From assembly GCF_009765165.1 (NCBI RefSeq), contig NZ_VLNU01000001.1:2734247-2798246 (forward strand): 64,000 nucleotides of DNA, read 5' to 3'. The translations under genes and the position numbers were made by a program. The notes under the pieces are model-generated. The model did not search any database. It was not told the origin of the DNA and saw only the letters and a program-made list of their open reading frames with translations. Source of the stretch: Lysobacter panacisoli. Its GTDB lineage: Bacteria; Pseudomonadota; Gammaproteobacteria; Xanthomonadales; Xanthomonadaceae. Below, piece after piece: positions 50,659 through 64,000 of this stretch. The first letter of the stretch is position 1; the number at the start of each line of letters is the position of its first letter.

Positions 50659-51726
50659 TCAGCCGCCCACCGCGTTCGCTTCGCGCGCTTCATGCGCCGC
50701 GAATCGTGCGCCACGCACAACGCCGTAGTAATCGCAGTACCAGTCGACGAAGTTCGCCACGCCCTCTTCCACGCGCACGCTCGGCGCATAGCCCATGTCG
50801 CGCGCGAGATCGCTGCAGTCCGCCTCGGTGGATGGCACATCGCCGGCCTGCAACGGCAGCATCCGCATCGTCGCCTTGCGGCCCAGGCAGTCTTCGAGCA
50901 CTTCGATGTAGCGAAGCAGATCGACGCTCTCGTGGCTGCCGATGTTGTACAGCCGGTACGGCGCCACGCCGCTGCTGGCCGGGTCGGGTGTGTCGCCGTT
51001 CCAGCGATCATCAATGCCGGGCACGCGATCGAGCGCGCGCACCACGCCGCCGACGATGTCGTCGATGTAGGTGAAGCTGCGCTTGTGGCGCCCGTGGTTG
51101 AAGACCTGTATCGGCTCGCCCGCGAGGATCGCGCGCGTGAACAGGAACAGCGCCATATCCGGACGACCCCACGGGCCGTACACCGTGAAGAAGCGCAGGC
51201 CCGTGCTCGCGAGGCCGTAGAGGTGCGCGTAGCTGTGCGCCATTGCCTCGTTGGCCTTCTTGGTCGCGGCGTAGAGCGTGAGCGGATGCTCGGTGGACTG
51301 GTGTTCGGAGAACGGCATCGTCGTGTTCGCACCGTACACCGAACTGGTCGACGCGTAGACAAGATGTTCGACCTCGTGGCGGCGTGCGCCTTCGAGCACG
51401 TGCAGGAAACCGGTCACGTTGCTCGACACGTACACATGCGGATTCTCCGCCGCGTAACGCACGCCGGCCTGCGCCGCCAGGTGCACCACGCGCTGCGGTC
51501 GGTGTTCGCGGAACAGCGCCTCGACGGCGTCGCGATCGGCCAGGTCGCCATGCGCGTGCGTGTAGGCGCAATGGCCTGTGAAACGTGCAAGTCGCGCACG
51601 CTTGAGGCTCACGTCGTAGTAGTCGTTGAGGTTGTCGAGCCCCACGACCTCATCGCCGCGCTTCAACAACTCCAGCGCGACGTGCGATCCGATGAAACCG
51701 GCGGTCCCGGTGACGAGGACTTTCAT
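50659..51726 (-). CDS. NAD-dependent UDP-glucuronate 4-epimerase-like protein
   Basis: A 355-residue short-chain dehydrogenase/epimerase. N-terminal TGTAGFIGSHVALELLKRGD binds NAD; the catalytic SerTyrLys set is YASTSSVYG and YAATKKANE. The DNLNDYYDVSLKRARLARF segment is typical of UDP-glucuronate 4-epimerases (CapI/LpsL type), making UDP-galacturonate for surface polysaccharides. It starts 3 nt from the end of the dehydrogenase gene, so the two form an operon that makes a uronic-acid sugar nucleotide. Confidence 0.9.
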   Translation of the reverse strand: MKVLVTGTAGFIGSHVALELLKRGDEVVGLDNLNDYYDVSLKRARLARFTGHCAYTHAHGDLADRDAVEALFREHRPQRVVHLAAQAGVRYAAENPHVYVSSNVTGFLHVLEGARRHEVEHLVYASTSSVYGANTTMPFSEHQSTEHPLTLYAATKKANEAMAHSYAHLYGLASTGLRFFTVYGPWGRPDMALFLFTRAILAGEPIQVFNHGRHKRSFTYIDDIVGGVVRALDRVPGIDDRWNGDTPDPASSGVAPYRLYNIGSHESVDLLRYIEVLEDCLGRKATMRMLPLQAGDVPSTEADCSDLARDMGYAPSVRVEEGVANFVDWYCDYYGVVRGARFAAHEAREANAVGG

Positions 51727-51729
51727 GGG

Positions 51730-53097
51730 TCACAGTCGCCCGTCGACTGCATCGCGCGGCAGCACGTACTTGACGTCGTAGACGACCGACGTCGGCTTGC
51801 CGAGCGCGCGCACGCCAGTCGCGCCAAGCGCGGCGAACTCGCGATGCGCGACCGCGACGATCACCGCGTCGTATTCGCCCGCCGTCGGCACTGGTGTCGG
51901 CTCGATGCCGTACTCGTGCATGGCCTGTCGCGCATCGACCCACGGATCGTGCACATCGACGTTCGCGTTATAGCCCCGTAGTGCCTGCACGATGTCGACC
52001 ACGCGCGTATTGCGCAGGTCCGGGCAGTTTTCCTTGAACGCGAGGCCGAGGATCAGGATCCGCGCGCGCACCGGATTGATGCCCTTGCGCACCATCAGGC
52101 GCACGACTTCGCTGGCGATGTAGGCGCCCATGCCGTCGTTGGTGCGGCGGCCAGCGAGGATCACGTCCGGGTGGTGGCCGATCTCCTGCGCCTTGTGGGT
52201 CAGGTAATACGGATCCACGCCGATGCAATGACCACCGACCAGGCCGGGACGGAAGGGCAGGAAATTCCACTTCGTTCCCGCCGCCTGCAGCACTTCCAGC
52301 GTGTCGATGCCGAGCTTGTTGAACAGGATCGCCAGGTCGTTGACGAGTGCGATGTTGAGGTCGCGCTGCGTGTTCTCGATGACCTTGGCCGCCTCGGCGA
52401 CCTTGATCGAACTGGCCTTGTGCGTGCCGGCCTCGATGATCGAACCGTACAGGCGATCGACGAACTCGGCCGCTTCCGGCGTGGAGCCCGAAGTGATCTT
52501 GAGGATGCGCGTGAGCCGGTGTTCCTTGTCGCCCGGGTTGATGCGCTCGGGACTGTAGCCGGCGAAGAAATCGCGATTGAACACCAGGCCCGACGCGCGC
52601 TCCAGGATCGGCACGCACACTTCCTCGGTGCAGCCGGGATACACCGTCGATTCGTACACGACGACGTCGCCACGCTTGAGTACCTTGCCCAGCGCTTCGC
52701 TCGCGCGCGCCAGCGGACCCAGATCCGGACGCTTGGCCGCGTCGATCGGCGTGGGCACGGTGACGATGTAGACGTTGCATCCGCGCAACGTTTCCAGCTC
52801 GCTGCTGAAGCGCAGGCGCCGCGCGGAGGCGAGTTCATCGGCGTCGACTTCCAGCGTGCTGTCGCGTCCGGCGCGCAGTTCGTCCACGCGCAGCGCGTTG
52901 ATGTCGAAGCCCACGGTGTCGTAGCGATGTCCGAACGCCACCGCGAGCGGCAGCCCGACGTAACCCAGCCCGACCACGCCGACACGCGCGGTTTCCAGCA
53001 GCGGTGGCGCGAGGGTGTCGCTGGCGCCGTGCGCGGCCGCCTGCGCGTCACGCATCGGCCGATGGACGGCGCGTTCTCCGATATCGGTGGTGTCCAT
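51730..53097 (-). CDS. Nucleotide-sugar dehydrogenase (WbpO/TviB-like)
   Basis: A 455-residue UDP-sugar 6-dehydrogenase. The Rossmann motif [17 protein letters not shown], and the catalytic Cys in [20 protein letters not shown] with the RRTNDGMG segment, match WbpO/TviB-type UDP-N-acetyl-hexosamine dehydrogenases more than plain UDP-glucose dehydrogenases. With the epimerase it would supply a (N-acetyl)uronate for capsule, O-antigen or exopolysaccharide. About 35 N-terminal residues before the Rossmann fold look unstructured; the start at 53097 is not certain. Confidence 0.9.
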
Positions 53098-53315
53098 CCG
53101 CGGCTCAGTCGAAGTGGTGGCGTTCGAAACGCATGCACGATCCCCTGGCGGAAACCGGATCGGAACGTCCGCCTCGAGACAGGTAAACGCAGCGGCGCGC
53201 CCGGACAGGACGCGATGCGCGATTCGCGCAGTGTCTGTCCTGATCCCGATGCCGCCCGCGTTCCAGATCGATGTATCCGTGGCAGTGCCGGCACGGGCCG
53301 GACAGGGGCGAGGCA

Positions 53316-54119
53316 ATGGTGGCAGTCGCATGGCGGCAGGACGAACCGGCGTGTCGACTCCACCAGGCCTTTTTCTGCGAGCCGATGGCGGTGGAGCGCT
53401 GCACCGTGGCCGTGGTCGAGCTGCGCGAGTGGCAGCCCTGGCTCGATGACGCGTGGGGGCTGCTCGACGCATCCGAACGCCAGCGCGTCAGCCAGCGCCG
53501 CATTCCCGCGGATCGCGAAGCGCTTGCACTCACTTACGCGCTGCACCGTCTGTTCGTCGCCAACGCCATCGCGGTTCCGCCGGCGTCGGTGAGCATCGGT
53601 CGCGACGCGAACGGCTGTCCCTGGCTTCCCGGTCACGAACTGCACGGCCGCGCCCTCCACACCAGCCTCAGCCATGCCGACGGCGTGGCCGCATTCGCGC
53701 TGTGCGCGCGTGGCCCGGTGGGCGTGGACATCGAGGCCGCGTTCCGCGCCGGCGAATTGCCGGGCATCGCCGCCAGCGTCTGCCATCCGTCGGAACTGCA
53801 GTCGCTTGCTGGCTTTCCAGAGCCGGCCTACAGCCGTGCCCTGTTGTCGTTGTGGGTGCGCAAGGAGGCGCTGTTGAAGGCCGAAGGGATTGGCCTGGCG
53901 CGCGAAATGAACACCTTCCGGGCCAGCGCCGGCGAAACGTTTCCACTCACCGGTCGCACGCGGGATGACACGGCGTGCAGCGTGCGGCTGGCGATGCTCG
54001 ATATCGGCGAGCGATGGACCGCGGCGGTCGCCACGCCGGGCGATGCCGCGGTCGAATGCCGACACCTGCGCCCGGACGTTGGCCGGATCGCCGACGGCAG
54101 GGCGTTACAGGTGTCGTGA
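53316..54119 (+). CDS. 4'-phosphopantetheinyl transferase, Sfp type
   Basis: A 267-residue enzyme that moves phosphopantetheine from CoA to a carrier-protein Ser. The two signature motifs are GVDIE (residues 136-140) and [12 protein letters not shown] (180-191), with SLSHADG near 117. The Sfp type serves NRPS/PKS carrier domains, and the megasynthase 3 kb downstream contains one PCP and one ACP. It is divergent from the dehydrogenase. The start is uncertain: ATG at 53316 has a nearby GAGG, while ATG at 53385 is also possible. Confidence 0.88.
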
Positions 54120-54138: not shown

Positions 54139-54264
54139 ATGACCACCGTGACGGAAGACGCGCGGCCCCAGCGGCCAGGATTCCCCGAACCGAGCGAACT
54201 GCAGTGTGCCAACCGTGCGCGCGCCGGAATGCGCGCGCACCGAGTCAGGAGTGCGGTCCCATGA
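54139..54264 (+). CDS. Candidate 41-residue small protein coupled to the sugar transferase
   Basis: A short frame MTTVTEDARPQRPGFPEPSE... ending in RVRSAVP. A GGGGGGAA ribosome site lies 4 nt before the ATG, and the TGA stop overlaps the next gene's ATG (ATGA at 54261-54264). It lies in the 141-nt gap after the phosphopantetheinyl transferase. No family is recognised; it is Arg/Pro-rich and likely unstructured. It could be a real small protein or a leader frame that couples translation. Confidence 0.45.
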   Translation: MTTVTEDARPQRPGFPEPSELQCANRARAGMRAHRVRSAVP

Positions 54265-55655
54265 TGTTCGGCAAGGCGAGCATGAAAAACCGGGCAGCGA
54301 TGCTGCTGTGGTTGCTGGAACTGTTGCTGGTGATGGCGGCGGTGATCGGCGCGGCGTACCTGCGCTTCATGAACGATCCCGAGGGCCATGAGATCTTCTC
54401 TGAGAACATCGCGCTGCGCGCCTTCCTGGTCGGCATGTTCGCGACCACGGCGATGGCGGCGCTGGGCCTGTACGAGGTCCACGTCCGCCTGAACCGCTTC
54501 GAATTCGCGCTGCGCCTGCTGGTGTCGTTCGCGATCGGCGGCATCGGCCTGATGGTCCTCTACTACCTGCTGCCGATGGCCTACATCGGTCGCGGTGTCA
54601 TCGTCATCGCGATGGTGCTGGGCATCGTCGCCATCGGGCTGCTGCGTTTCTGCATGGTGCACCTGGTGCGCGGCGACTTCTTCAGGCGGCGCGTGCTGGT
54701 GCTTGGCGCCGGCCACAACGCAGACCTGATCAATACGCGACTGCGCCGCGACAGCGATCGTCGCGCCTTCACGCTGGTCGGCTTCGTGCCGATCCCGGGA
54801 CAGGAATCGACGGTGCCGGCAGCAATGCAGGTCGCGCCGACGGATGGACTCGCCGCGCTCGCGAACCGGCTGCAGATCAGCGAAGTCGTGGTCGCGCCGG
54901 ACGAGCGCCGCGGCGGCCTGCCGATGGAGGAGATGCTGACCTGCGTGCAGCGCGGTGTCGCCATGACCGATCTGTCGACGTTCTTCGAACGCGAGGCAGG
55001 CATCGTCACGACCAACCTCGTCGATCCGTCATGGTTGGTGTTCTCGGGCGGCTTCGATCACTCCACCTCGCGCTGCTTCAACAAGCGCGGCTTCGACATG
55101 CTGGCGGCGTCGCTGTTGTTGCTGCTGACGTGGCCGCTGATGGCGCTGGTGGCCGTGTTGATCCGCCTGGAGTCGAGCGGCCCGATCCTCTACCAGCAGA
55201 CGCGCATCGGCGAAGGCGGCCGCCCGTTCGAACTGGTGAAATTCCGCAGCATGCGCGTGGACGCCGAAGGCGACGGTGTCGCACGCTGGGCGCAGCGCGG
55301 CGACGACCGCACCACGCGTGTTGGGCGCTTCATCCGCCTGACGCGACTGGACGAACTGCCGCAGCTGTTCAACATCCTGCGCGGCGAGATGAGCATCGTC
55401 GGCCCGCGCCCGGAGCGTCCTCAGTTCGTCGACATGCTCAGTCGCGAGATCCGCTACTACGCCGTGCGCCACTGCGTGAAGCCGGGCCTGACCGGTTGGG
55501 CGCAGCTGCGCTATCCGTACGGCGCGTCGGTGCGCGATGCCGAGGAAAAGCTGAAGTTCGACCTGTTCTACGTGAAGAACCACGGCCTCGTGTTCGACCT
55601 GATCATCCTGCTGCAGACGGTCGAGGTGGTGTTGTTCCAGCGCGGGTCCCGGTAG
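54261..55655 (+). CDS. Undecaprenyl-phosphate sugar phosphotransferase, exopolysaccharide type
   Basis: A 464-residue inner-membrane initiating glycosyl-1-phosphate transferase. Four or five N-terminal helices are followed by a soluble NAD-like domain (RRRVLVLGAGHNADLI) and a C-terminal catalytic part: a fifth helix (KRGFDMLAASLLLLLTWPLMALVAVLI), ILYQQTRIGEGGRPFELVKFRSM, DELPQLFNILRGEMSIVGPRPERP and KPGLTGWAQLRYPYG. It starts exopolysaccharide repeat synthesis on undecaprenyl phosphate. The design resembles the EpsB-like transferases of PEP-CTERM/exosortase systems, but no exosortase is in the window. Confidence 0.92.
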   Translation: MMFGKASMKNRAAMLLWLLELLLVMAAVIGAAYLRFMNDPEGHEIFSENIALRAFLVGMFATTAMAALGLYEVHVRLNRFEFALRLLVSFAIGGIGLMVLYYLLPMAYIGRGVIVIAMVLGIVAIGLLRFCMVHLVRGDFFRRRVLVLGAGHNADLINTRLRRDSDRRAFTLVGFVPIPGQESTVPAAMQVAPTDGLAALANRLQISEVVVAPDERRGGLPMEEMLTCVQRGVAMTDLSTFFEREAGIVTTNLVDPSWLVFSGGFDHSTSRCFNKRGFDMLAASLLLLLTWPLMALVAVLIRLESSGPILYQQTRIGEGGRPFELVKFRSMRVDAEGDGVARWAQRGDDRTTRVGRFIRLTRLDELPQLFNILRGEMSIVGPRPERPQFVDMLSREIRYYAVRHCVKPGLTGWAQLRYPYGASVRDAEEKLKFDLFYVKNHGLVFDLIILLQTVEVVLFQRGSR

Positions 55656-55885: not shown

Positions 55886-56590
55886 TCACGGCTCCAACAC
55901 TTCTTCCTCTTCATGCACCGGCCGCGGCGTCGGTGTCATCAGGCGGTTCGGCGGCACGCTGGCCCAGTCGACCACGTGTCCGTCCTCGAAGCGCACCCAC
56001 GACGACCCGTAGTTCCAGACGCCGTCCTGCACGCGTTCGGGTTGCCCCTGGATCGTGATGACCGAAGCCTCTTCCATGCCTAGTTCCAGTCGCGGCGCAT
56101 CCGGCGCGGCCTCGGCGACAGCGCCGCCGCCGTCCTGGTGGGACGGTGCACTCGTCTCCGACCAGTGCAGCACGACCATGATCACCACCAGCGCGAGAAT
56201 GCTTAGCGTGGCGATGCGCGACATCGGGCGCGTCTGTTCCGCGCGCGTGGCGAGTGACCGCGCACGCGTGCCGGAACCTTCGTCGGGCGCACGCTGCGTC
56301 GGCGGTACGTATGCAGTGCCGAAACCGCCCGTGCTCGCAGGCGCTGGCGCGGGCCCGCGTTGGACCGCGCCGGGCAGGCGGCCGTGGATGCGGTGGAAGC
56401 GGATCGCACCCGAGTACAGCGCGGTGAGTTCGGTGAGCGCGCGATGCGCGTCGCTGGACGAATCCTGTTCGAGATGACGATCGGGGTGGAGTTCGCCCAC
56501 GCGCACGCGGTACGCGCGCTTGAGGTCTTCGAGGCTGCAGTCCGGATGCAGCCCGAGCTGCAGGTACAGAAGCGCGAAGTCCTGGCTCAT
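55886..56590 (-). CDS. J-domain membrane protein with an OmlA-like C-terminal domain
   Basis: A 234-residue protein. A J domain fills residues 1-65 with HPD at 35-37, the motif that activates DnaK ATPase. A Pro/Ala-rich linker follows, then one membrane helix (about 126-143; IATLSILALVVIMVVLHW). The C-terminal part (170-215) carries the pattern GMEEASVITIQGQPERVQDGVWNYG...WVRFEDGHVVDW, like BamE/OmlA-type or DUF2845-like small domains. Its topology predicts that the J domain is cytosolic and the tail periplasmic. The role and the DnaK partner are unknown. It runs divergently from the megasynthase. Confidence 0.8.
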   Translation of the reverse strand: MSQDFALLYLQLGLHPDCSLEDLKRAYRVRVGELHPDRHLEQDSSSDAHRALTELTALYSGAIRFHRIHGRLPGAVQRGPAPAPASTGGFGTAYVPPTQRAPDEGSGTRARSLATRAEQTRPMSRIATLSILALVVIMVVLHWSETSAPSHQDGGGAVAEAAPDAPRLELGMEEASVITIQGQPERVQDGVWNYGSSWVRFEDGHVVDWASVPPNRLMTPTPRPVHEEEEVLEP

Positions 56591-56964
56591 GGGGCCCCCT
56601 TGTCGCGCCCATCCTAGCGTGAGTCCCGCGCGCCCGCATCGTCGCCGCGATGGCCGTTGTCGAAGGCGCTAAGCGTTTGGATGGGATGAGAGGGGCAGGG
56701 ATCGGCCGGACGGCGGTGCGCATCGGCCATGCCGTACACGCGGGGTGAGCGATGTCGTGGGTGTTCGACCAGTGCAGGGCCCAGGTTCGGACCATCTCCG
56801 GTCCGACGAGTGGTCGACGCGACACCCGAACCAGCCGCGCCCAATGACGCGACGTAGCGACCGGACACCCGGCCCGACGCCTTCGACAGGCGATGCGGTG
56901 CAGGTGGAAACGTGGCCGCGGCCGACGGCGTGATGCGTCGACGGCCGACCGAAGGAGCAAGTGG
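56591..56964. other. Divergent promoter region before the megasynthase
   Basis: About 370 nt without a gene, between the J-domain gene and the NRPS/PKS. An AAGGAG ribosome site lies at 56951-56956. No confident promoter pair or regulator site was recognised. Confidence 0.5.
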
Positions 56965-59900
56965 ATGAGCACGCGGTTGGAAGCGAAACAGGACAAGCAC
57001 GCGGCCGCTCCGGCGCCAGCGATCGACTCGGCACTGCTGGACGTGCTGCCGCAGCACGCGGGCGATGATGATGGCACGCAGTCGTTCGCACTCGATGCGA
57101 ACACCGCCGCTGCGTTGCGCGCGACTGGCGTCGATGCATCCGGCCTCATGGCGGTTGCGCTCGCCATCGTCGAATCGCGCCTGTGCGGTGCAGTCGATGT
57201 GCTCGTCACCCACGTGGCCGGTGGAAACATCGCCCAGCAGCGCATCGCGCTCGGCAACGAACATACGCTCGCGCTCGCAGCGCAGCTGTCGTCCGCCAGC
57301 GGTGCGCTGCAGCCGGCGGTGTGGGCCGCACTCGACACCGACGGGATTCCCGCCGAAGTCGCCTCGTCCTGGCATCTTGTCCTCGACGACGATGCCCGCA
57401 TCGACGTGGAATACCGTGAACCACTGACCGCCGCGAGCGTGGCGGTGCTCGGCGAATGCGCGCGGCGCGCGCTGACTGCCATCGCGCAGTCACCCGGCGC
57501 CATCGGCGCCGATATCGACGTGCTCGATCCGGCCGACCGCGAACGCCAGCTGCGTGAGTGGGGAGTAGCACCACCTGCGCGCACGACGTTCGACACCGTG
57601 CACGACTGCTTCGCGCAGGCGCGCGACCGCTGGCCCGATTCCCTCGCCATCGTGCACAACGAAGACTCGGTGACCTACACCGAACTCGACCATCGCGCCG
57701 CATCACTCGCCACGCGCCTGCGCGCGGCGGGCGTCGGCGTTGGCGACATCGTGGGCGTGGCGATTCCGCGCTCGCTGGCGGCACTGGTCGCGATGCTCGG
57801 CGTGATCAAGGCCGGCGCGGCGTACCTGCCGCTCGATCCGACGCTGCCCGCGGACCGCCTGGCGTTCATGGCGCAAGACGCGTCGATCCGTGCGGTGATC
57901 ATCGACGGCGCCCGCGACGTGGCGGTGCCGGCGCAGTATCCGCGCGTTGCGGTCGATGGCGACGACGCGCCGGGAACTCCTGCCGAAGGAATCGACGGCG
58001 ACAGCCTTGCCTACGTGCTGTTCACGTCCGGATCGACCGGCGTGCCGAAGGGCGTGGAAGTCCGCCAACGCTCGCTCGTGCGCCGGCTGCACGGCATCGA
58101 TTACGTCACGCTTGATGCGCAGACGCGCATGCTGCACTCGGCGCCGCTGGGTTTCGACATCTCCGGGCTGGAGATCTGGGGCACGCTGTTCAACGGCGGC
58201 ACGATCGTCGTGCATGACGAAACCGTGCCGACCGCCGCGCGCCTGCGCGCGACGGTGGAGCGCCACGCCGCGAACGCCGGCATCATGGCGGTGGCGTTGT
58301 TCAACGCCATCGTCGACGAGGATGCGCACATCTTCGCCGGGCTGCGCGACATCATCATCGGCGGCGAATCGCTGTCGGTCGATCACGTGCGCCGCATGCA
58401 GGCGATCGCGCCGGAGCTGCGCATCCACAACGGCTACGGTCCGACAGAGTGCACGATCATGTGCACGTCCTATGAGATCCCGCGCGATCTCGCCGCCGAC
58501 ACCACCTGCATCCCGATCGGACGCACCCTGCAGGACGCGAGCGCCTATGTGCTCAATCGTCGCCTGCAGCCGGTGCCGGCCGGCGTCATCGGCGAACTCT
58601 GCGTGGGCGGCGTCGGCGTCGCCCGTGGCTACCTGCAGCGTCCCGAGCTCAACGCCGAGCGCTTCGTCGCCAATCCCTTCGTCACGGAACCGGACATCCT
58701 CTATCGCACCGGAGACTACGTGCGCTATCGCCAGGATGGGCAACTGGAATTCGTCGGTCGCACCGATGCGCAGGTGAAGATCCGCGGTTACCGCATCGAG
58801 CTGACAGAAATCGAGGCCGTGCTCGCGCGTCATCCCGCAGTGGCGTCGTGCACGGTCGTCGCGCGAGCCGATTTCCCCGGCGAGAAGCGGCTGGTCGCGT
58901 ACTACGTGCCGACGGTGGTCGAAGCGGGCGCGACACAGCTGCGCGCGCACCTTGCCGCAGCGCTTCCTGCCTTCATGGTGCCCACGCGTTACGTCTGCCT
59001 GCTGGATGAGCTGCCGCTGACCGCCAATGGCAAGGTCGATCGCCGAGCACTGCCGGCGCCGGACCGCAGCCGACCCGAACTCACCTGCGACTACGCCGCG
59101 CCGGCGACGCCGCTCGAAGCACGCCTGTGCGATGCGTTCGGCTCGCTGCTCGACGTCGAAGGCGTGGGTCGCGACGACAACTTCTTCGAACTGGGCGGCA
59201 GCTCGCTGCTCGCGGTGCGCCTGGCCGAACACATCCGCAACGAAGGCTGGCAGTCCGGATCGCCCGATCGTCCCCGCGTCGCAGCGCCGACCATCTTCCA
59301 GCACCCGACGCCTGCGCGTCTGGCCGCTGTGCTGGACGGCGACACGGCCGCGAATGCATCGCGGACCGCGCGTCGCAACGTGTCCGACATCGTGCGCGAA
59401 CCCATCGCGATTATCGCGATGGCCGGCCGTTTCCCGGGTGCCGACGACGTCGAGGGCTTCTGGAACAACCTCTGCGAAGGCCGCGACTCGATCACCAAGT
59501 TCCGCATCGACGAGCTGGATCCGTCGATCGGCGCGTCCGATCGCAATGACCCTTCGTACGTCGCCGCGCGTGGTGTGATCGAGGGCGTGGAACTGTTCGA
59601 CGCCGCGTTCTTCGGCATCGGTCCGCGCGAGGCGGAGCTGATGGACCCGCAGCAGCGCATCTTCCTGGAACTGTGCTGGGAATGCCTGGAACGCGGCGGC
59701 CACGTGCCCGACGCGACGGCCACTGCGGATGGCACGAACATCACCGGCATCTTCGCCGGCATGAACAACGCGACGTACTTCCAGCGCCATGCGTCCGTGC
59801 ATCCGGAACTGGTGAACCGCGTCGGCGCACTGCAGGTGATGCTCGGCAACGAGAAGGATTACATCGCCACGCGCGTGGCGCACAAGCTCAACCTCACCGG

Positions 59901-62900
59901 TCCCGCGGTCAGCGTGCACAACGCGTGCTCGACCTCGCTGGTGGCGATCGCGCAGGCAGCTGAGAGCCTGCAGTCCGGGCTGTGCGACATGGCGCTGGCC
60001 GGCGGCATCGCGGTGACGTGCCCGCCGCGCAGCGGGTATCTGTACCAGGAAGGTTCGATGCTGTCGCCCGACGGGCATACGCGTACGTTCGATGCGCAGG
60101 CCAAGGGCACGGTGTTCGGCGACGGCGCGGCGGTCGTGCTGCTCAAGCGGCTGTCCGATGCGATCGCCGATGGCAACACGGTGTACGCGGTGATCCGCGG
60201 CGCCGCGCTCAACAACGACGGCGCCAACCGCGCCAGCTTCACCGCACCGAGCAGTGAAGGGCAGGCGGCGGTGATCGCGCTGGCGCACGACAAGGCCGGC
60301 GTCGATCCGCGCAGCATCGGCTACGTCGAAGCGCACGGCACGGCGACGCCGCTCGGCGATCCCATCGAGATCGAAGGCCTGACGCGCGCATTCCGTCGCG
60401 GCACGCAGGACACCGGCTTCTGCCGCATCGGCTCGCTCAAGAGCAACGTCGGCCACCTCGTCACCGCAGCCGGCGCCGCGGGCGTGATCAAGACCGCGCT
60501 GGCGCTCCACGAGAAGCGCATCCCGGCCAGCATCCATTTCGAATCGCCGAATCCGTCGATCGACTTCGCTGCGTCGCCGTTCGTCGTCAACGCACGCATG
60601 AGCGCGTGGGACAGCGATGGCGCACCGCGTCGCGCGGGCGTGAGTTCGTTCGGCCTGGGCGGCACCAATGCGCATGCGGTGCTCGAGGAAGCGCCGTTGC
60701 TGCCTGCGTCAGATGCGGGCGACGGCGCGCAGCTTCTCGTGCTGTCGGCGCGCACGCCGGCCGCGCTGGGCAACGCGGTGAACCGGCTGGTCGATCATCT
60801 CGAAACGAACCCGCACGAGAACCTCGCCGACGTGGCGTGGACGCTCGCGGTCGGACGCAAGGCCTTCTCGCACCGCATCGCGGTAGCGGCGGACGACGTG
60901 GCCAATGCGATCGAAACGCTGCGCGCACCCGACACGCAGGCCGAGGCCGCGCGAAGCCGTCCCACGCGCGCGGGCGAAGTCGTGTTCATGTTCCCGGGAC
61001 AGGGCGCAACCTATGCCGGCATGGGTCGCGGGCTGTACGCGAGCGAAGCCGTGTTCCGCGACGCCGTGGACGAATGCGCGACAGTGCTCGGAACCGAGCT
61101 CGGCTTCGACCTGCGCGAGGTCATGTTTGGCGACGACGCGCAGGCGCTGTTGCCGACCTCGGTGATGCAGCCGGCGACGTTCGTGATCGAGTACGCGCTG
61201 TCGCGGCTGTGGATGAGCCGTGGCATCGATCCGGCCGTGATGATCGGCCACAGCGTGGGCGAGTTCGTTGCCGCCACGCTGGCCGGCGTGTTCGAACTGG
61301 GCGATGCACTGCGGCTGGTCGCGCGTCGCGGTGCGCTGATGCAGGCGCAGCCGCCGGGCGCGATGCTCTCGGTCCGGCTGCCCGCGCAGAAGGTGCTCGA
61401 GCGCCTGCCGCAGGGCCTCTCACTGGCTGCGGAGAACTCGCCGCTGGCTTGCGTGGTGGCCGGTCCGGCGGACGACGTGGCGGCGTTCCAGGCGCAGCTG
61501 GAAGGCGAGGGCATCGCCTGCCGCGCGTTGCGGACCTCGCATGCGTTCCACTCCGCGATGATGGAGCCGGTCGTCGCGCCCTTCCGCGAGGCGGTCGCCG
61601 CGGTGCGCCTGAACGCGCCGACGCGCCGCATCGTCTCCACCGTCACCGGCGATTGGCTCGACGACGCCTCCGCCACCTCGCCCGATTACTGGGCCCGACA
61701 CCTGCGCGAGCCGGTGCGCTTCGCGCCCGCGCTGCAGTGCCTGCTCGACGTGCCCACGCGCGTGCTGCTGGAAGTCGGCCCGCGCGCGACCCTCAACGCG
61801 CTCGCGCGCCAGCAGCCTGACGTGCAGAAGCAGCGCATGGCCGTGGTCGCCACGTTGGCCGACAACCCGGCCAGCGAGCGCCGCGACGTGCTTGCCGCCG
61901 CCGGTCGCCTGTGGAGCACCGGCGTGGCGATCGATCCGGCGGCCTTCGACCGCCGCGCGATCCGCCATCGCCTGCGCCTGCCGACCTATCCGTTCGAGCG
62001 ACAACGTTATTGGGTTGAGGCCATCGCGGCGGCCGCGTCGAACGTGATCCCGCATCCGGCCGTCGCGGCCACCGCCAGAACAACGACCGTATTGGAGACC
62101 GTCATGCCGCAGTCCACGCCCTCGACCGCCGTCGCCGTCCCGACCGCCGCTACCGCCGCTCCCGGCCGTCGTGAGCGTCTCGTCGGGCAACTGCGTGGCC
62201 TGTTCGAGAACGTCGCCGGCTTCGACATGGCCGATGCCGACGTCGACACCAACTTCATCGAACTCGGGCTGGACAGCCTGATGCTCACCCAGGTCGCGGT
62301 GCAGTTGCAGAAGACCTTCGAGGTGCCGGTCGGATTCCGCCAGCTGATGGGCGACTGCTCCAGCCTGGACCGCCTCGCGGCGATGCTCGACGAGGCGATG
62401 CCGGCCGAAGCCGCGCCGGCGCCCGTGGCGGCCGTCGTCGCTCCGGTCGCCGTCGCGCCGCCGGTCGCTGTGGCCGCGCCCATCGCGATGCCCGCGCTCG
62501 ACGGCGGCAACGATTTCACCCGCCAGGTGATCGCCCAGCAGATGCAGCTGATGGCGCAGCAGCTCGCGTTGCTGTCCGGTGGCGCAGTGGCCGCGCCCGC
62601 GCCGGTCGTCGCGCCGGCGCCTGTGGCGGTGGCTGCTCCGGCACCCGCGCCGGCGCCCGTCGCTGCACCGCAGCCGGTCGCAGTCGCGCCCGCGAAGCCC
62701 GCCGAAGGCGAGGAAGACACCGGCGCGGTCCAGCAGAAGTACGACGTCAAGAAGGCCTTCGGTGCGATCGCGCGCATCGACAACAACGCCGACCTCGAAC
62801 TCACGCCGCAGCAGAAGACGCGGCTGGACGCTTTCTTCGACCGCTACATCGCGCGCACGCGCAAGTCGAAGGAGTACACCCAGCAGCATCGCGACCGCCT

Positions 62901-64000
62901 CGCCGATCCGCGTGTGGTCAACGGCTTCCGTCCGCTGACCAAGGAGATCGTCTACCAGATCGTGGTGGAGCGTTCGAAGGGCTCGCGCGTGATCGACCTG
63001 GACGGCAACGAGTATGTCGATGCGCTCAACGGCTTCGGCATGAGCCTGTTCGGCTGGCAGCCCGACTTCGTCCTCGACGCCGTGCGCGAGCAGCTCGACA
63101 AGGGCTACGAGATCGGACCGCAGCATCCCGTCGCCGGCGAAGTCGCCGACCTGGTGTGCGAGCTGACCGGGCACGAGCGCGCCGCGTTGTGCAACACCGG
63201 TTCCGAAGCAGTGCTTGGCGCATTGCGTGTCGCGCGCACCGTGACCGCGCGAAGCACGGTGGTGCTGTTCACCGGTTCCTACCACGGCATCGTCGATGAA
63301 GTGATCGTGCGCGGCACCAAGTCGCTGCGTGCGGTGCCGGCCGCGCCGGGCATCCTGCGCAACACCGCCGAGAACGTGCTGGTGCTCGACTACGGCACGC
63401 CCGAATCGATGGAGATCATCCGTTCGCGCGCGAAGGAGATCGCCGCGGTGCTGGTCGAGCCGGTGCAGAGTCGGCGTCTGGACTTCCGCCCGGTGGAATT
63501 CCTGAAGGAACTGCGCGAGGTGACGCGCGACAACGGCGCGCTGCTGATCTTCGACGAGGTGGTCACGGGCTTCCGCTCCAATCCGGGCGGCGTGCAGGCC
63601 ATCTTCGGCATCAAGGCCGACCTCGCGACTTACGGCAAGGTCGTCGGCGGCGGCTTCCCGATCGGCGTGATCGCCGGCAAGCGCGAGTACATGGACGCGC
63701 TCGACGGAGGCCATTGGCAGTACGGCGACGATTCGGTCCCGACGGTGGGCGTGACGTACTTCGCCGGCACCTTCGTGCGCCATCCGCTCGCGCTGGTCGC
63801 GGCGAAGGCAGTGCTTGAACACTTCAAGCGCGATGGCGGCGAGCTGCAGAAGCGTCTTAACGCCAACGCCGAAGCATTGGCTAACGACATCAACGCCTAT
63901 TGCGCGGACGTCGGCGCACCGGTTTCGGTCAAGCAGTTCGCCTCGGCGTGGAAGACCCACTGGCACGAGAACCATCCGCTGCAGGACCTGCTGTTCGCAC
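56965..64000 (+). CDS. Hybrid NRPS/PKS megasynthase (A-PCP-KS-AT-ACP-aminotransferase), 3' truncated
   Basis: The frame is open over the 2,345 residues visible and continues beyond the window. Residues 1-200 resemble the C-terminal lobe of a condensation domain without HHxxxDG. The adenylation domain (about 205-720) has FTSGSTGVPKG (353-363), YGPTE (491-495), YRTGD (580) and Lys690 in NGKVD. A PCP has LGGSS with Ser747. The KS (about 813-1240) has Cys988 in NACSTS, His1124 in EAHGT and His1164 in SNVGH. The AT (about 1340-1640) has Ser1430 in GHSVGE and HAFH at 1526-1529, the malonyl-CoA type. The ACP Ser is 1771. An Ala/Pro/Val linker precedes a class III PLP aminotransferase (from about 1929) with Lys2225. 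It should load an amino acid, extend it by C2 and convert the beta-ketone to a beta-amine. Confidence 0.93.
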   Translation, partial: MSTRLEAKQDKHAAAPAPAIDSALLDVLPQHAGDDDGTQSFALDANTAAALRATGVDASGLMAVALAIVESRLCGAVDVLVTHVAGGNIAQQRIALGNEHTLALAAQLSSASGALQPAVWAALDTDGIPAEVASSWHLVLDDDARIDVEYREPLTAASVAVLGECARRALTAIAQSPGAIGADIDVLDPADRERQLREWGVAPPARTTFDTVHDCFAQARDRWPDSLAIVHNEDSVTYTELDHRAASLATRLRAAGVGVGDIVGVAIPRSLAALVAMLGVIKAGAAYLPLDPTLPADRLAFMAQDASIRAVIIDGARDVAVPAQYPRVAVDGDDAPGTPAEGIDGDSLAYVLFTSGSTGVPKGVEVRQRSLVRRLHGIDYVTLDAQTRMLHSAPLGFDISGLEIWGTLFNGGTIVVHDETVPTAARLRATVERHAANAGIMAVALFNAIVDEDAHIFAGLRDIIIGGESLSVDHVRRMQAIAPELRIHNGYGPTECTIMCTSYEIPRDLAADTTCIPIGRTLQDASAYVLNRRLQPVPAGVIGELCVGGVGVARGYLQRPELNAERFVANPFVTEPDILYRTGDYVRYRQDGQLEFVGRTDAQVKIRGYRIELTEIEAVLARHPAVASCTVVARADFPGEKRLVAYYVPTVVEAGATQLRAHLAAALPAFMVPTRYVCLLDELPLTANGKVDRRALPAPDRSRPELTCDYAAPATPLEARLCDAFGSLLDVEGVGRDDNFFELGGSSLLAVRLAEHIRNEGWQSGSPDRPRVAAPTIFQHPTPARLAAVLDGDTAANASRTARRNVSDIVREPIAIIAMAGRFPGADDVEGFWNNLCEGRDSITKFRIDELDPSIGASDRNDPSYVAARGVIEGVELFDAAFFGIGPREAELMDPQQRIFLELCWECLERGGHVPDATATADGTNITGIFAGMNNATYFQRHASVHPELVNRVGALQVMLGNEKDYIATRVAHKLNLTGPAVSVHNACSTSLVAIAQAAESLQSGLCDMALAGGIAVTCPPRSGYLYQEGSMLSPDGHTRTFDAQAKGTVFGDGAAVVLLKRLSDAIADGNTVYAVIRGAALNNDGANRASFTAPSSEGQAAVIALAHDKAGVDPRSIGYVEAHGTATPLGDPIEIEGLTRAFRRGTQDTGFCRIGSLKSNVGHLVTAAGAAGVIKTALALHEKRIPASIHFESPNPSIDFAASPFVVNARMSAWDSDGAPRRAGVSSFGLGGTNAHAVLEEAPLLPASDAGDGAQLLVLSARTPAALGNAVNRLVDHLETNPHENLADVAWTLAVGRKAFSHRIAVAADDVANAIETLRAPDTQAEAARSRPTRAGEVVFMFPGQGATYAGMGRGLYASEAVFRDAVDECATVLGTELGFDLREVMFGDDAQALLPTSVMQPATFVIEYALSRLWMSRGIDPAVMIGHSVGEFVAATLAGVFELGDALRLVARRGALMQAQPPGAMLSVRLPAQKVLERLPQGLSLAAENSPLACVVAGPADDVAAFQAQLEGEGIACRALRTSHAFHSAMMEPVVAPFREAVAAVRLNAPTRRIVSTVTGDWLDDASATSPDYWARHLREPVRFAPALQCLLDVPTRVLLEVGPRATLNALARQQPDVQKQRMAVVATLADNPASERRDVLAAAGRLWSTGVAIDPAAFDRRAIRHRLRLPTYPFERQRYWVEAIAAAASNVIPHPAVAATARTTTVLETVMPQSTPSTAVAVPTAATAAPGRRERLVGQLRGLFENVAGFDMADADVDTNFIELGLDSLMLTQVAVQLQKTFEVPVGFRQLMGDCSSLDRLAAMLDEAMPAEAAPAPVAAVVAPVAVAPPVAVAAPIAMPALDGGNDFTRQVIAQQMQLMAQQLALLSGGAVAAPAPVVAPAPVAVAAPAPAPAPVAAPQPVAVAPAKPAEGEEDTGAVQQKYDVKKAFGAIARIDNNADLELTPQQKTRLDAFFDRYIARTRKSKEYTQQHRDRLADPRVVNGFRPLTKEIVYQIVVERSKGSRVIDLDGNEYVDALNGFGMSLFGWQPDFVLDAVREQLDKGYEIGPQHPVAGEVADLVCELTGHERAALCNTGSEAVLGALRVARTVTARSTVVLFTGSYHGIVDEVIVRGTKSLRAVPAAPGILRNTAENVLVLDYGTPESMEIIRSRAKEIAAVLVEPVQSRRLDFRPVEFLKELREVTRDNGALLIFDEVVTGFRSNPGGVQAIFGIKADLATYGKVVGGGFPIGVIAGKREYMDALDGGHWQYGDDSVPTVGVTYFAGTFVRHPLALVAAKAVLEHFKRDGGELQKRLNANAEALANDINAYCADVGAPVSVKQFASAWKTHWHENHPLQDLLFA

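Follow-up and report, generated by a model that had tools for sequence, protein, structure and literature searches.

Aminotransferase (AMT) domains working on polyketide intermediates are known from MycA of the mycosubtilin/iturin pathways, which has an acyl ligase at its start, is primed with a fatty acid and contains a type of AMT known to act on fatty beta-ketoacyl chains. McyE and NdaF, of microcystin and nodularin synthesis, also hold an AMT inside a PKS-NRPS line that makes a beta-amino acid, with a starter and product different from those considered here; we know of no exopolysaccharide (EPS) locus associated with them. Neither do we know of an assembly line behind the glycine of the Vibrio polysaccharide VPS. 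This glycine is amide-linked to C6 of a gulose-type sugar, according to an excerpt of PMC11637428, and an excerpt of PMC3870968 gives Gln as the amino donor of the MycA AMT. Among polysaccharide loci, the closest described relatives are the XrtA/PEP-CTERM EPS loci (PMC1569441, in excerpt).

The window analysed here is a stretch of 64,000 nucleotides from Lysobacter panacisoli, and the gene of interest begins at position 56965 and runs past its right end. With MycA this gene shares a KS-AT-ACP-AMT module and an AMT of the same family as the structures 6kfm, 6kfr and 6kfu, the common chemistry being beta-amination of a malonate-extended chain. It differs from MycA in that an NRPS A domain and an amino acid lead here, and in that MycA yields a cyclic lipopeptide whereas an EPS-linked unit is proposed for the present line. 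The locus resembles the XrtA/PEP-CTERM loci by its EpsB_2, chain-length and export proteins, which exceed the respective cut-offs, and by a hydrolase 1/2-like pair, which does not; it differs from them by the lack of an exosortase in the genome and by an NRPS-PKS pair with no lone TIGR03098 ligase over cut-off. The proposed product would resemble VPS as an EPS that carries glycine, VPS however having a single one. The AMT module is of a known kind, that of MycA, and the EPS chassis is of a known kind minus the exosortase. Among the matches listed in a search of open-licence PMC text (titles and starts of abstracts), we found no description of an NRPS linked to EPS, and the searches made gave no match to a characterised cluster.

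Gene 1 encodes a hybrid NRPS-PKS with a MycA-type aminotransferase

On the + strand, an ATG at 56893 opens a single frame that reaches the window end, and the ATG at 56965 is the start of a protein of 2440 aa (gene 1). A sequence-only reading of the window had proposed for this gene the order A-PCP-KS-AT-ACP-AMT, with the gene and its AMT continuing outside. The right flank of the genome sequence (L003) completes the gene: the frame 56965..64000 runs on to window coordinate 64287, 287 bp beyond the window (L003:1211-8533), and is followed by a second gene and by EPS genes. No internal stop was found from 56965 to L003:8533. Pfam recovered the proposed order with every domain well over cut-off. 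Numbered in residues from 56893, the matches were AMP-binding (241-581), AMP-binding_C (639-714), two PP-binding stretches, ketoacyl-synt (836-1090), the C-terminal domain of ketoacyl-synt (1098-1217), Acyl_transf_1 (1364-1678), PP-binding (1766-1832) and Aminotran_3 (2022-2333). In window coordinates, the A domain occupies 57613..59034, PCP1 approximately 59110..59310 (Ser codon 59203), the KS 59398..60543 (Cys codon 59926), the AT 60982..61926, the ACP 62188..62388, and the class III AMT 62956..64000, continuing to about 64122 outside the window (PLP Lys codon 63637).

The A domain is of the amino-acid type (TIGR01733, 422 bits, cut-off 317), in keeping with the earlier proposal of an amino acid primer and not an acyl-ligase start. 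The lipopeptide synthetase family was considered as an alternative assignment and rejected, as an amino-acid-type A domain leads and there is no fatty-acyl ligase starter. The AT carries GHSVG and HAFH, the latter marking the malonyl type. The best solved relative of the AMT is that of the MycA mycosubtilin synthase (6kfm, E 4.6e-121), so that the kinship to MycA claimed from the letters alone holds, and the succession of KS-AT-ACP and a class III AMT in one protein, with intact catalytic residues, is that of a MycA/McyE-type module.

No canonical condensation domain had been recognised at the start of the gene, and the stretch 56965..57612 is indeed without a Pfam match: over the N-terminal 230 aa no family reached E<=1, and the A model starts at about residue 217 counted from 56965. 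In Pseudoxanthomonas kalamensis (L016), the homologous stretch matches positions 202-434 of the 456 of the Condensation model PF00668 (E 7.3e-13). Because this counterpart matches the C-terminal half of the model, the start of gene 1 looks like a worn-down half condensation domain.

We compared gene 1 of the window with that of 70 relatives (n=71), leaving out loci with a cut or broken gene 1; in L054, for instance, the frame breaks after the KS. The layout A-PCP-KS-AT-ACP-AMT was found in 70 of the 71 full lines, that of the window included, and the remaining one has a recognised C stretch ahead of it. The KS Cys/His/His, the AT Ser and HAFH, the ACP Ser and the AMT Lys are identical in all 71 sequences, as are the Asp and the Thr-Gly-Ser stretch of the AMT, and the PCP1 Ser is present in all of them; the catalytic residues of KS and AT are therefore intact. 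The specificity codes of the A domains, whose positions were set by motif relative to the gramicidin synthetase A domain, are more varied. A Val-type code, DA[LF][WF].G.TFK, occurs in 54 of the 71, Pro-like codes in 10 and Thr-like codes in two, while the divergent code DILIIGGIMK is that of the window and is found in five domains, all of the window's clade. The codes (Val, Pro, Thr, Ser, Gly) are read here by their usual meanings.

Distribution and linkage to exopolysaccharide genes

A protein search with residues 1700-2440 produced 6405 proteins at E<=1e-3 among 8000 scored, and the 120 matches listed included proteins of Lysobacter, Luteimonas, Pseudoxanthomonas, Dyella, Rhodanobacter and Frateuria. 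When genome contigs were scanned, 221 relatives were obtained, the best 80 of which are the loci named L005-L084; these cover many species, and a few come from MAGs with the labels Burkholderiales, Rhodocyclaceae or Rubrivivax. When 299 genomes of the order were searched with the AMT (query A1), 56 matched at E<=1e-100, and their scores fell into two groups, 43 genomes above 900 bits and 13 below 660 bits. The 43 strong genomes belong to 17 genera, 11 of them in the window's family and 32 in one other family, which indicates that the line is not peculiar to one strain; as only two families are involved, these genomes do not count as 43 independent events. In a set of 369 genomes of the class, which partly overlaps the order set, 10 matched and only the window's own exceeded 900 bits.

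We then considered EpsB_2 (TIGR03013), a polyprenyl glycosylphosphotransferase, as a marker of EPS linkage. It was over cut-off in 72 of the 299 genomes, and all 43 strong AMT genomes were among these 72 (Fisher p 6e-33, a guide only, as kinship is ignored). In 40 of the 43, EpsB_2 lies on the same contig and strand within 25 kb of the AMT (median gap 9.6 kb), against about 0.5 of 40 expected from random placement, and in 38 of these 40 it is upstream. In each of the three other genomes one or both genes lie on a short contig (7.2 and 25 kb in G246) or close to the end of a contig (G085, G287). In the 13 weaker genomes, EpsB_2 was found within 25 kb in six (one on the other strand), about 50 kb away in two, on another contig in one and not over cut-off in four. 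This linkage shows shared use, not covalent attachment.

In the window, EpsB_2 lies at 54258..55652 (+; 536 bits, cut-off 393), ahead of gene 1. It is preceded by a 4'-phosphopantetheinyl transferase-like protein at 53316..54116 (+; HetI family, below cut-off), a homologue of which (L009:327-1418) matches PF01648 ACPS over cut-off and which would activate the carrier domains. On the opposite strand are a TviB-like UDP-N-acetylglucosamine C-6 dehydrogenase (51733..53100; 620 bits, cut-off 592) and an NAD-dependent nucleotide-sugar epimerase/dehydratase (50662..51726; below the cut-offs shown). The far side of the gene pair holds glycosyltransferase-like, deacetylase-like and ligase-like proteins, a chain-length determinant and an export protein. 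EpsB_2, the chain-length protein (TIGR03007) and the export protein (TIGR03027) all exceed the XrtA-system cut-offs, while the O-glycosylation-ligase-like protein stays at 73 bits (cut-off 188). The window's genome gave no match to the exosortase PF09721 at E<=1e-3 and no TIGR03098 ligase over cut-off, the best being the A domain of gene 2 with 242 of 592 bits. Genes 1 and 2 thus lie within an exopolysaccharide locus of the XrtA type that has no exosortase.

The surroundings were also inspected in relatives. In 20 of the 80 loci, 133 neighbour ORFs, a few of which may be counted as shadow calls, matched 68 Pfam families, and the 25 commonest of these included Bac_transf (9), Glycos_transf_2 (7), Hydrolase_4 (7), Wzy_C (6), Glyco_tranf_2_3 (6), ACPS (6), Cupin_8 (6) and Polysacc_synt (5). 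Several further neighbours were recorded. A DnaJ-domain-type protein is encoded on the minus strand beside the EPS genes (55886..56590) and belongs to a cluster present in 31 of the 80 loci; it was named by Pfam on one member of the cluster (L051), and the window copy has no NCBIfam match. A Cupin_8/JmjC-like protein, a possible hydroxylase, is found by clustering near gene 1 in 29 of the 80 loci (for example L015:3427-4392); of three members run on Pfam, two were over the Cupin_8 cut-off and one below, and in the window no such protein was seen ahead of gene 1. Another family is represented close to gene 1 in 27 loci, most of which are of Dyella/Rhodanobacter type (for example L031:2157-2990 and L049:2039-2899), and three members tried had no Pfam match. 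Beyond the flippase-like protein, a choice-of-anchor Q domain protein is encoded on the other strand (L003:18960-20000, into L004), with homologous stretches in L045, L055 and L059.

Gene 2 and the end of the line

Gene 2 (L003:8530-14658, 2042 aa) lies just past the window and overlaps the end of gene 1 by 4 bp. Its layout in the window's genome is C-A-PCP-C-PCP-TE-PCP, which is shared by five of 75 loci; 45 have C-A-PCP-C-A-PCP, 17 have C-A-PCP-C-PCP, three end in a TE, three show PCP-PCP and in two the last PCP was uncalled. The HHxxxDG motif of the first C domain is present in 75 of 75 gene-2 sequences, the second His of the second C domain in 69 (three Gln, three gaps) and the Ser of the terminal PCP in 71. 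The code of the first A domain starts with DI[LM]Q in 73 of 81 domains (77 loci, with a few extra genes or pieces) and reads as glycine-like by the codes used above, the DIMQVGGVYK type being less certain. Where a third A domain exists, Asp235 is kept in 29 of 45 and absent in 16. The loci without it, in all of which a seemingly decayed A domain stands between C and PCP, are L031, L040, L043, L048, L050, L051, L053, L058, L062, L065, L066, L072, L073, L074, L076 and L078. The window's genome contains two Condensation domains in total, both in gene 2, and six AMP-binding proteins at E<=1e-20, two of which are in the line itself; no NRPS A domain that would serve the last module in trans, where this has none of its own, was seen in the genome at that threshold.

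Searched with the TE of the window as sole query, eight of the 75 lines hold a TE (five of the window's clade and three others). In the window's genome this domain is not C-terminal, as it precedes a last PCP. Sixty lines stop on a bare PCP with 17-113 aa behind it, four have a fused hydrolase 2, and in L033, L055 and L080 the frame is cut or the last PCP uncalled.

Downstream of gene 2 in the window's genome are two alpha/beta hydrolases followed by a flippase-like protein. The pair resembles 'hydrolase 2' and 'hydrolase 1, exosortase A system-associated', both below cut-off. Among 101 loci examined, the two were co-present in 37 of 37 having either (31 of the 80 named loci). Hydrolase 2 is fused behind the terminal PCP in L015, L022, L035 and L036 (E 3.5e-57 to 2.6e-64), L035 and L036 being near relatives. 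The elbow Cys of hydrolase 1 is present in 37 of 38 rows, the window copy being counted twice and one row having a gap, while hydrolase 2 has no fixed residue at the nucleophile elbow, Ser being found there in 15 of 38 rows. The solved structures related to hydrolase 1 match it weakly (best E 7e-6) and are those of ordinary alpha/beta hydrolases. On account of the PCP fusions, the joint occurrence and the Cys being fixed only in hydrolase 1, we suggest that hydrolase 2 may dock to the carrier and hydrolase 1 carry out the transfer. In the available stretches of the 80 named loci, several of which end early, 49 showed no such pair, and it was not seen in loci of Dyella/Rhodanobacter type; in G232 and G125, of which 55 kb and 40 kb were covered, no called ORF had it as best match. 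Another release route must therefore exist in some loci.

Other lines and modules found with EpsB_2

Of the 29 EpsB_2 genomes without a strong AMT, 12 were examined (L085-L096). Three loci (L086, L089 and L090) contain PKS-NRPS lines in the same EPS setting, with the order A-PCP-KS-AT-ACP and neither AMT nor reductase in Pfam. A single AMP-binding protein is found in each of L085, L087, L088 and L094-L096; TIGR03098 was the second match in L085 and the first in L094, both below cut-off (two of the six scanned). The three others, L091-L093, belong to the genomes in which a strong exosortase match and EpsB_2 are about 9 kb apart. Across the 299 genomes, PF09721 was over its own cut-off in 92, of which 87 are weak matches (26-44 bits, mostly over half the model); five exceed 140 bits, none of them among the 43 strong AMT genomes. 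Weak matches occur in one of these 43 (G261, 30 bits) and in four of the 13 weaker AMT genomes (G016, G034, G035 and G237). These findings fit an EPS chassis with exchangeable modules, which with three strong exosortase cases is a lead and not a proof.

Proposed function and alternatives

We propose that genes 1 and 2 are the dedicated assembly line of an XrtA-type EPS locus. The A domain of gene 1 would load an amino acid on PCP1, Val-type in most relatives, the KS would couple it to one malonyl unit on the ACP, and the AMT, by analogy with MycA, would convert the beta-ketone to an amine. As the primer is an alpha-amino acid, such a sequence of steps would give a 3,4-diamino (beta,gamma-diamino) acid; in Val-type relatives this would be a 3,4-diamino-5-methylhexanoyl unit. 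The gamma-amino-beta-keto substrate that the AMT would have to accept is an extrapolation from MycA-type enzymes. The sequence-only reading had foreseen a beta-amino acid formed from an amino acid and one malonate; this description of the unit was incomplete, and the unit would not be the final product, as the second gene appears to add at least one glycine-like residue. The second C domain would probably add another residue, and where the third A domain is missing the A domain of gene 2 may charge both carriers. The chain would in most relatives end on a bare carrier domain, from which the hydrolase pair, where present, would take it and pass it to the EPS. The acceptor may be an amino sugar, freed by the deacetylase-like proteins encoded nearby in the locus, or else a hexuronic acid, through its carboxylate.

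The fact that the assembly line sits inside an EPS cluster in many relatives suggests decoration of the outer sugar coat rather than production of a free antibiotic. Because the locus is an exopolysaccharide cluster, we moved the likely destination from a free beta-amino-acid natural product, as first supposed, to a polysaccharide substituent. That the line builds a diaminoacyl-glycine group put onto the EPS is the reading we lean towards, the product and its attachment being predictions. The window's clade (five of 75 loci) counts against it, as the TE within its gene 2 could yield a free product. A small peptide secreted in free form (an antibiotic, siderophore, signal or lipopeptide), with EPS neighbours only through a shared role in surface life or biofilm, would agree with this TE and with those of the three other loci, and both MycA and McyE lines make free products. 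A 2022 review (PMC9581180, in excerpt) moreover counts Lysobacter soli, with others, among putative producers of lipopeptides by hybrid PKS-NRPS clusters. A search at E<=1e-30 of the L. soli genome to which L008 belongs gave a single type I KS, that of gene 1, the other match being a 419-aa frame; the cluster of the review is therefore probably the present NRPS-PKS/EPS locus, reinterpreted here. Yet same-strand linkage to EpsB_2 recurs across 17 genera of two families, 67 of the 75 gene-2 lines have no TE recognisable with the window's TE, 60 ending at most 113 aa after the last PCP, there is no acyl-ligase starter in the window, and no ABC, MFS or TonB family is among the 25 commonest neighbour Pfam families. 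We regard a free peptide as unlikely.

A product serving as linker or head group for lipid or surface proteins handled by the XrtA-type locus, and not as decoration of the repeat unit, would fit the resemblance to XrtA/PEP-CTERM loci, the O-glycosylation-ligase-like protein, the XrtA-named families matched below cut-off by hydrolases 1 and 2, and the weak, short PF09721 matches mentioned above, including that of G261. The window's genome however has no exosortase match and the 43 strong AMT genomes have none above 140 bits, which makes this explanation distinctly improbable. Least probable of all, in our opinion, is an idle AMT or terminal module, with delivery of, for example, a beta-keto aminoacyl glycine: related lines without AMT or reductase do exist, and many loci have a degenerate third A domain or none, but the invariance of the AMT Lys, Asp and Thr-Gly-Ser stretch in all 71 sequences argues against it. 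Returning to attachment to the EPS, the broader proposal is that such NRPS-PKS lines form a class that makes covalent substituents of EPS: an exchangeable aminoacyl module on an XrtA-type EPS chassis, taking the place of an exosortase or an acyl-ligase module, with a 3,4-diaminoacyl-glycine passed from a bare terminal carrier to sugar, partly via the hydrolase 1/2 pair. We put this forward tentatively, at slightly less than even chances.

If true, this proposal would account for the conservation of a line that is short and in most cases has no release domain, would give a testable role to two hypothetical XrtA-system hydrolases, and would also hint at the roles of hydrolases 1 and 2 and of the TIGR03098 ligase in XrtA loci generally. 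Some 'lipopeptide' or 'antibiotic' clusters of genome mining would then encode enzymes that tailor polysaccharides, and beta,gamma-diamino acids would become accessible by an enzyme route. One EPS type, present in many Xanthomonadales, would bear cationic, non-proteinogenic diamino acids.
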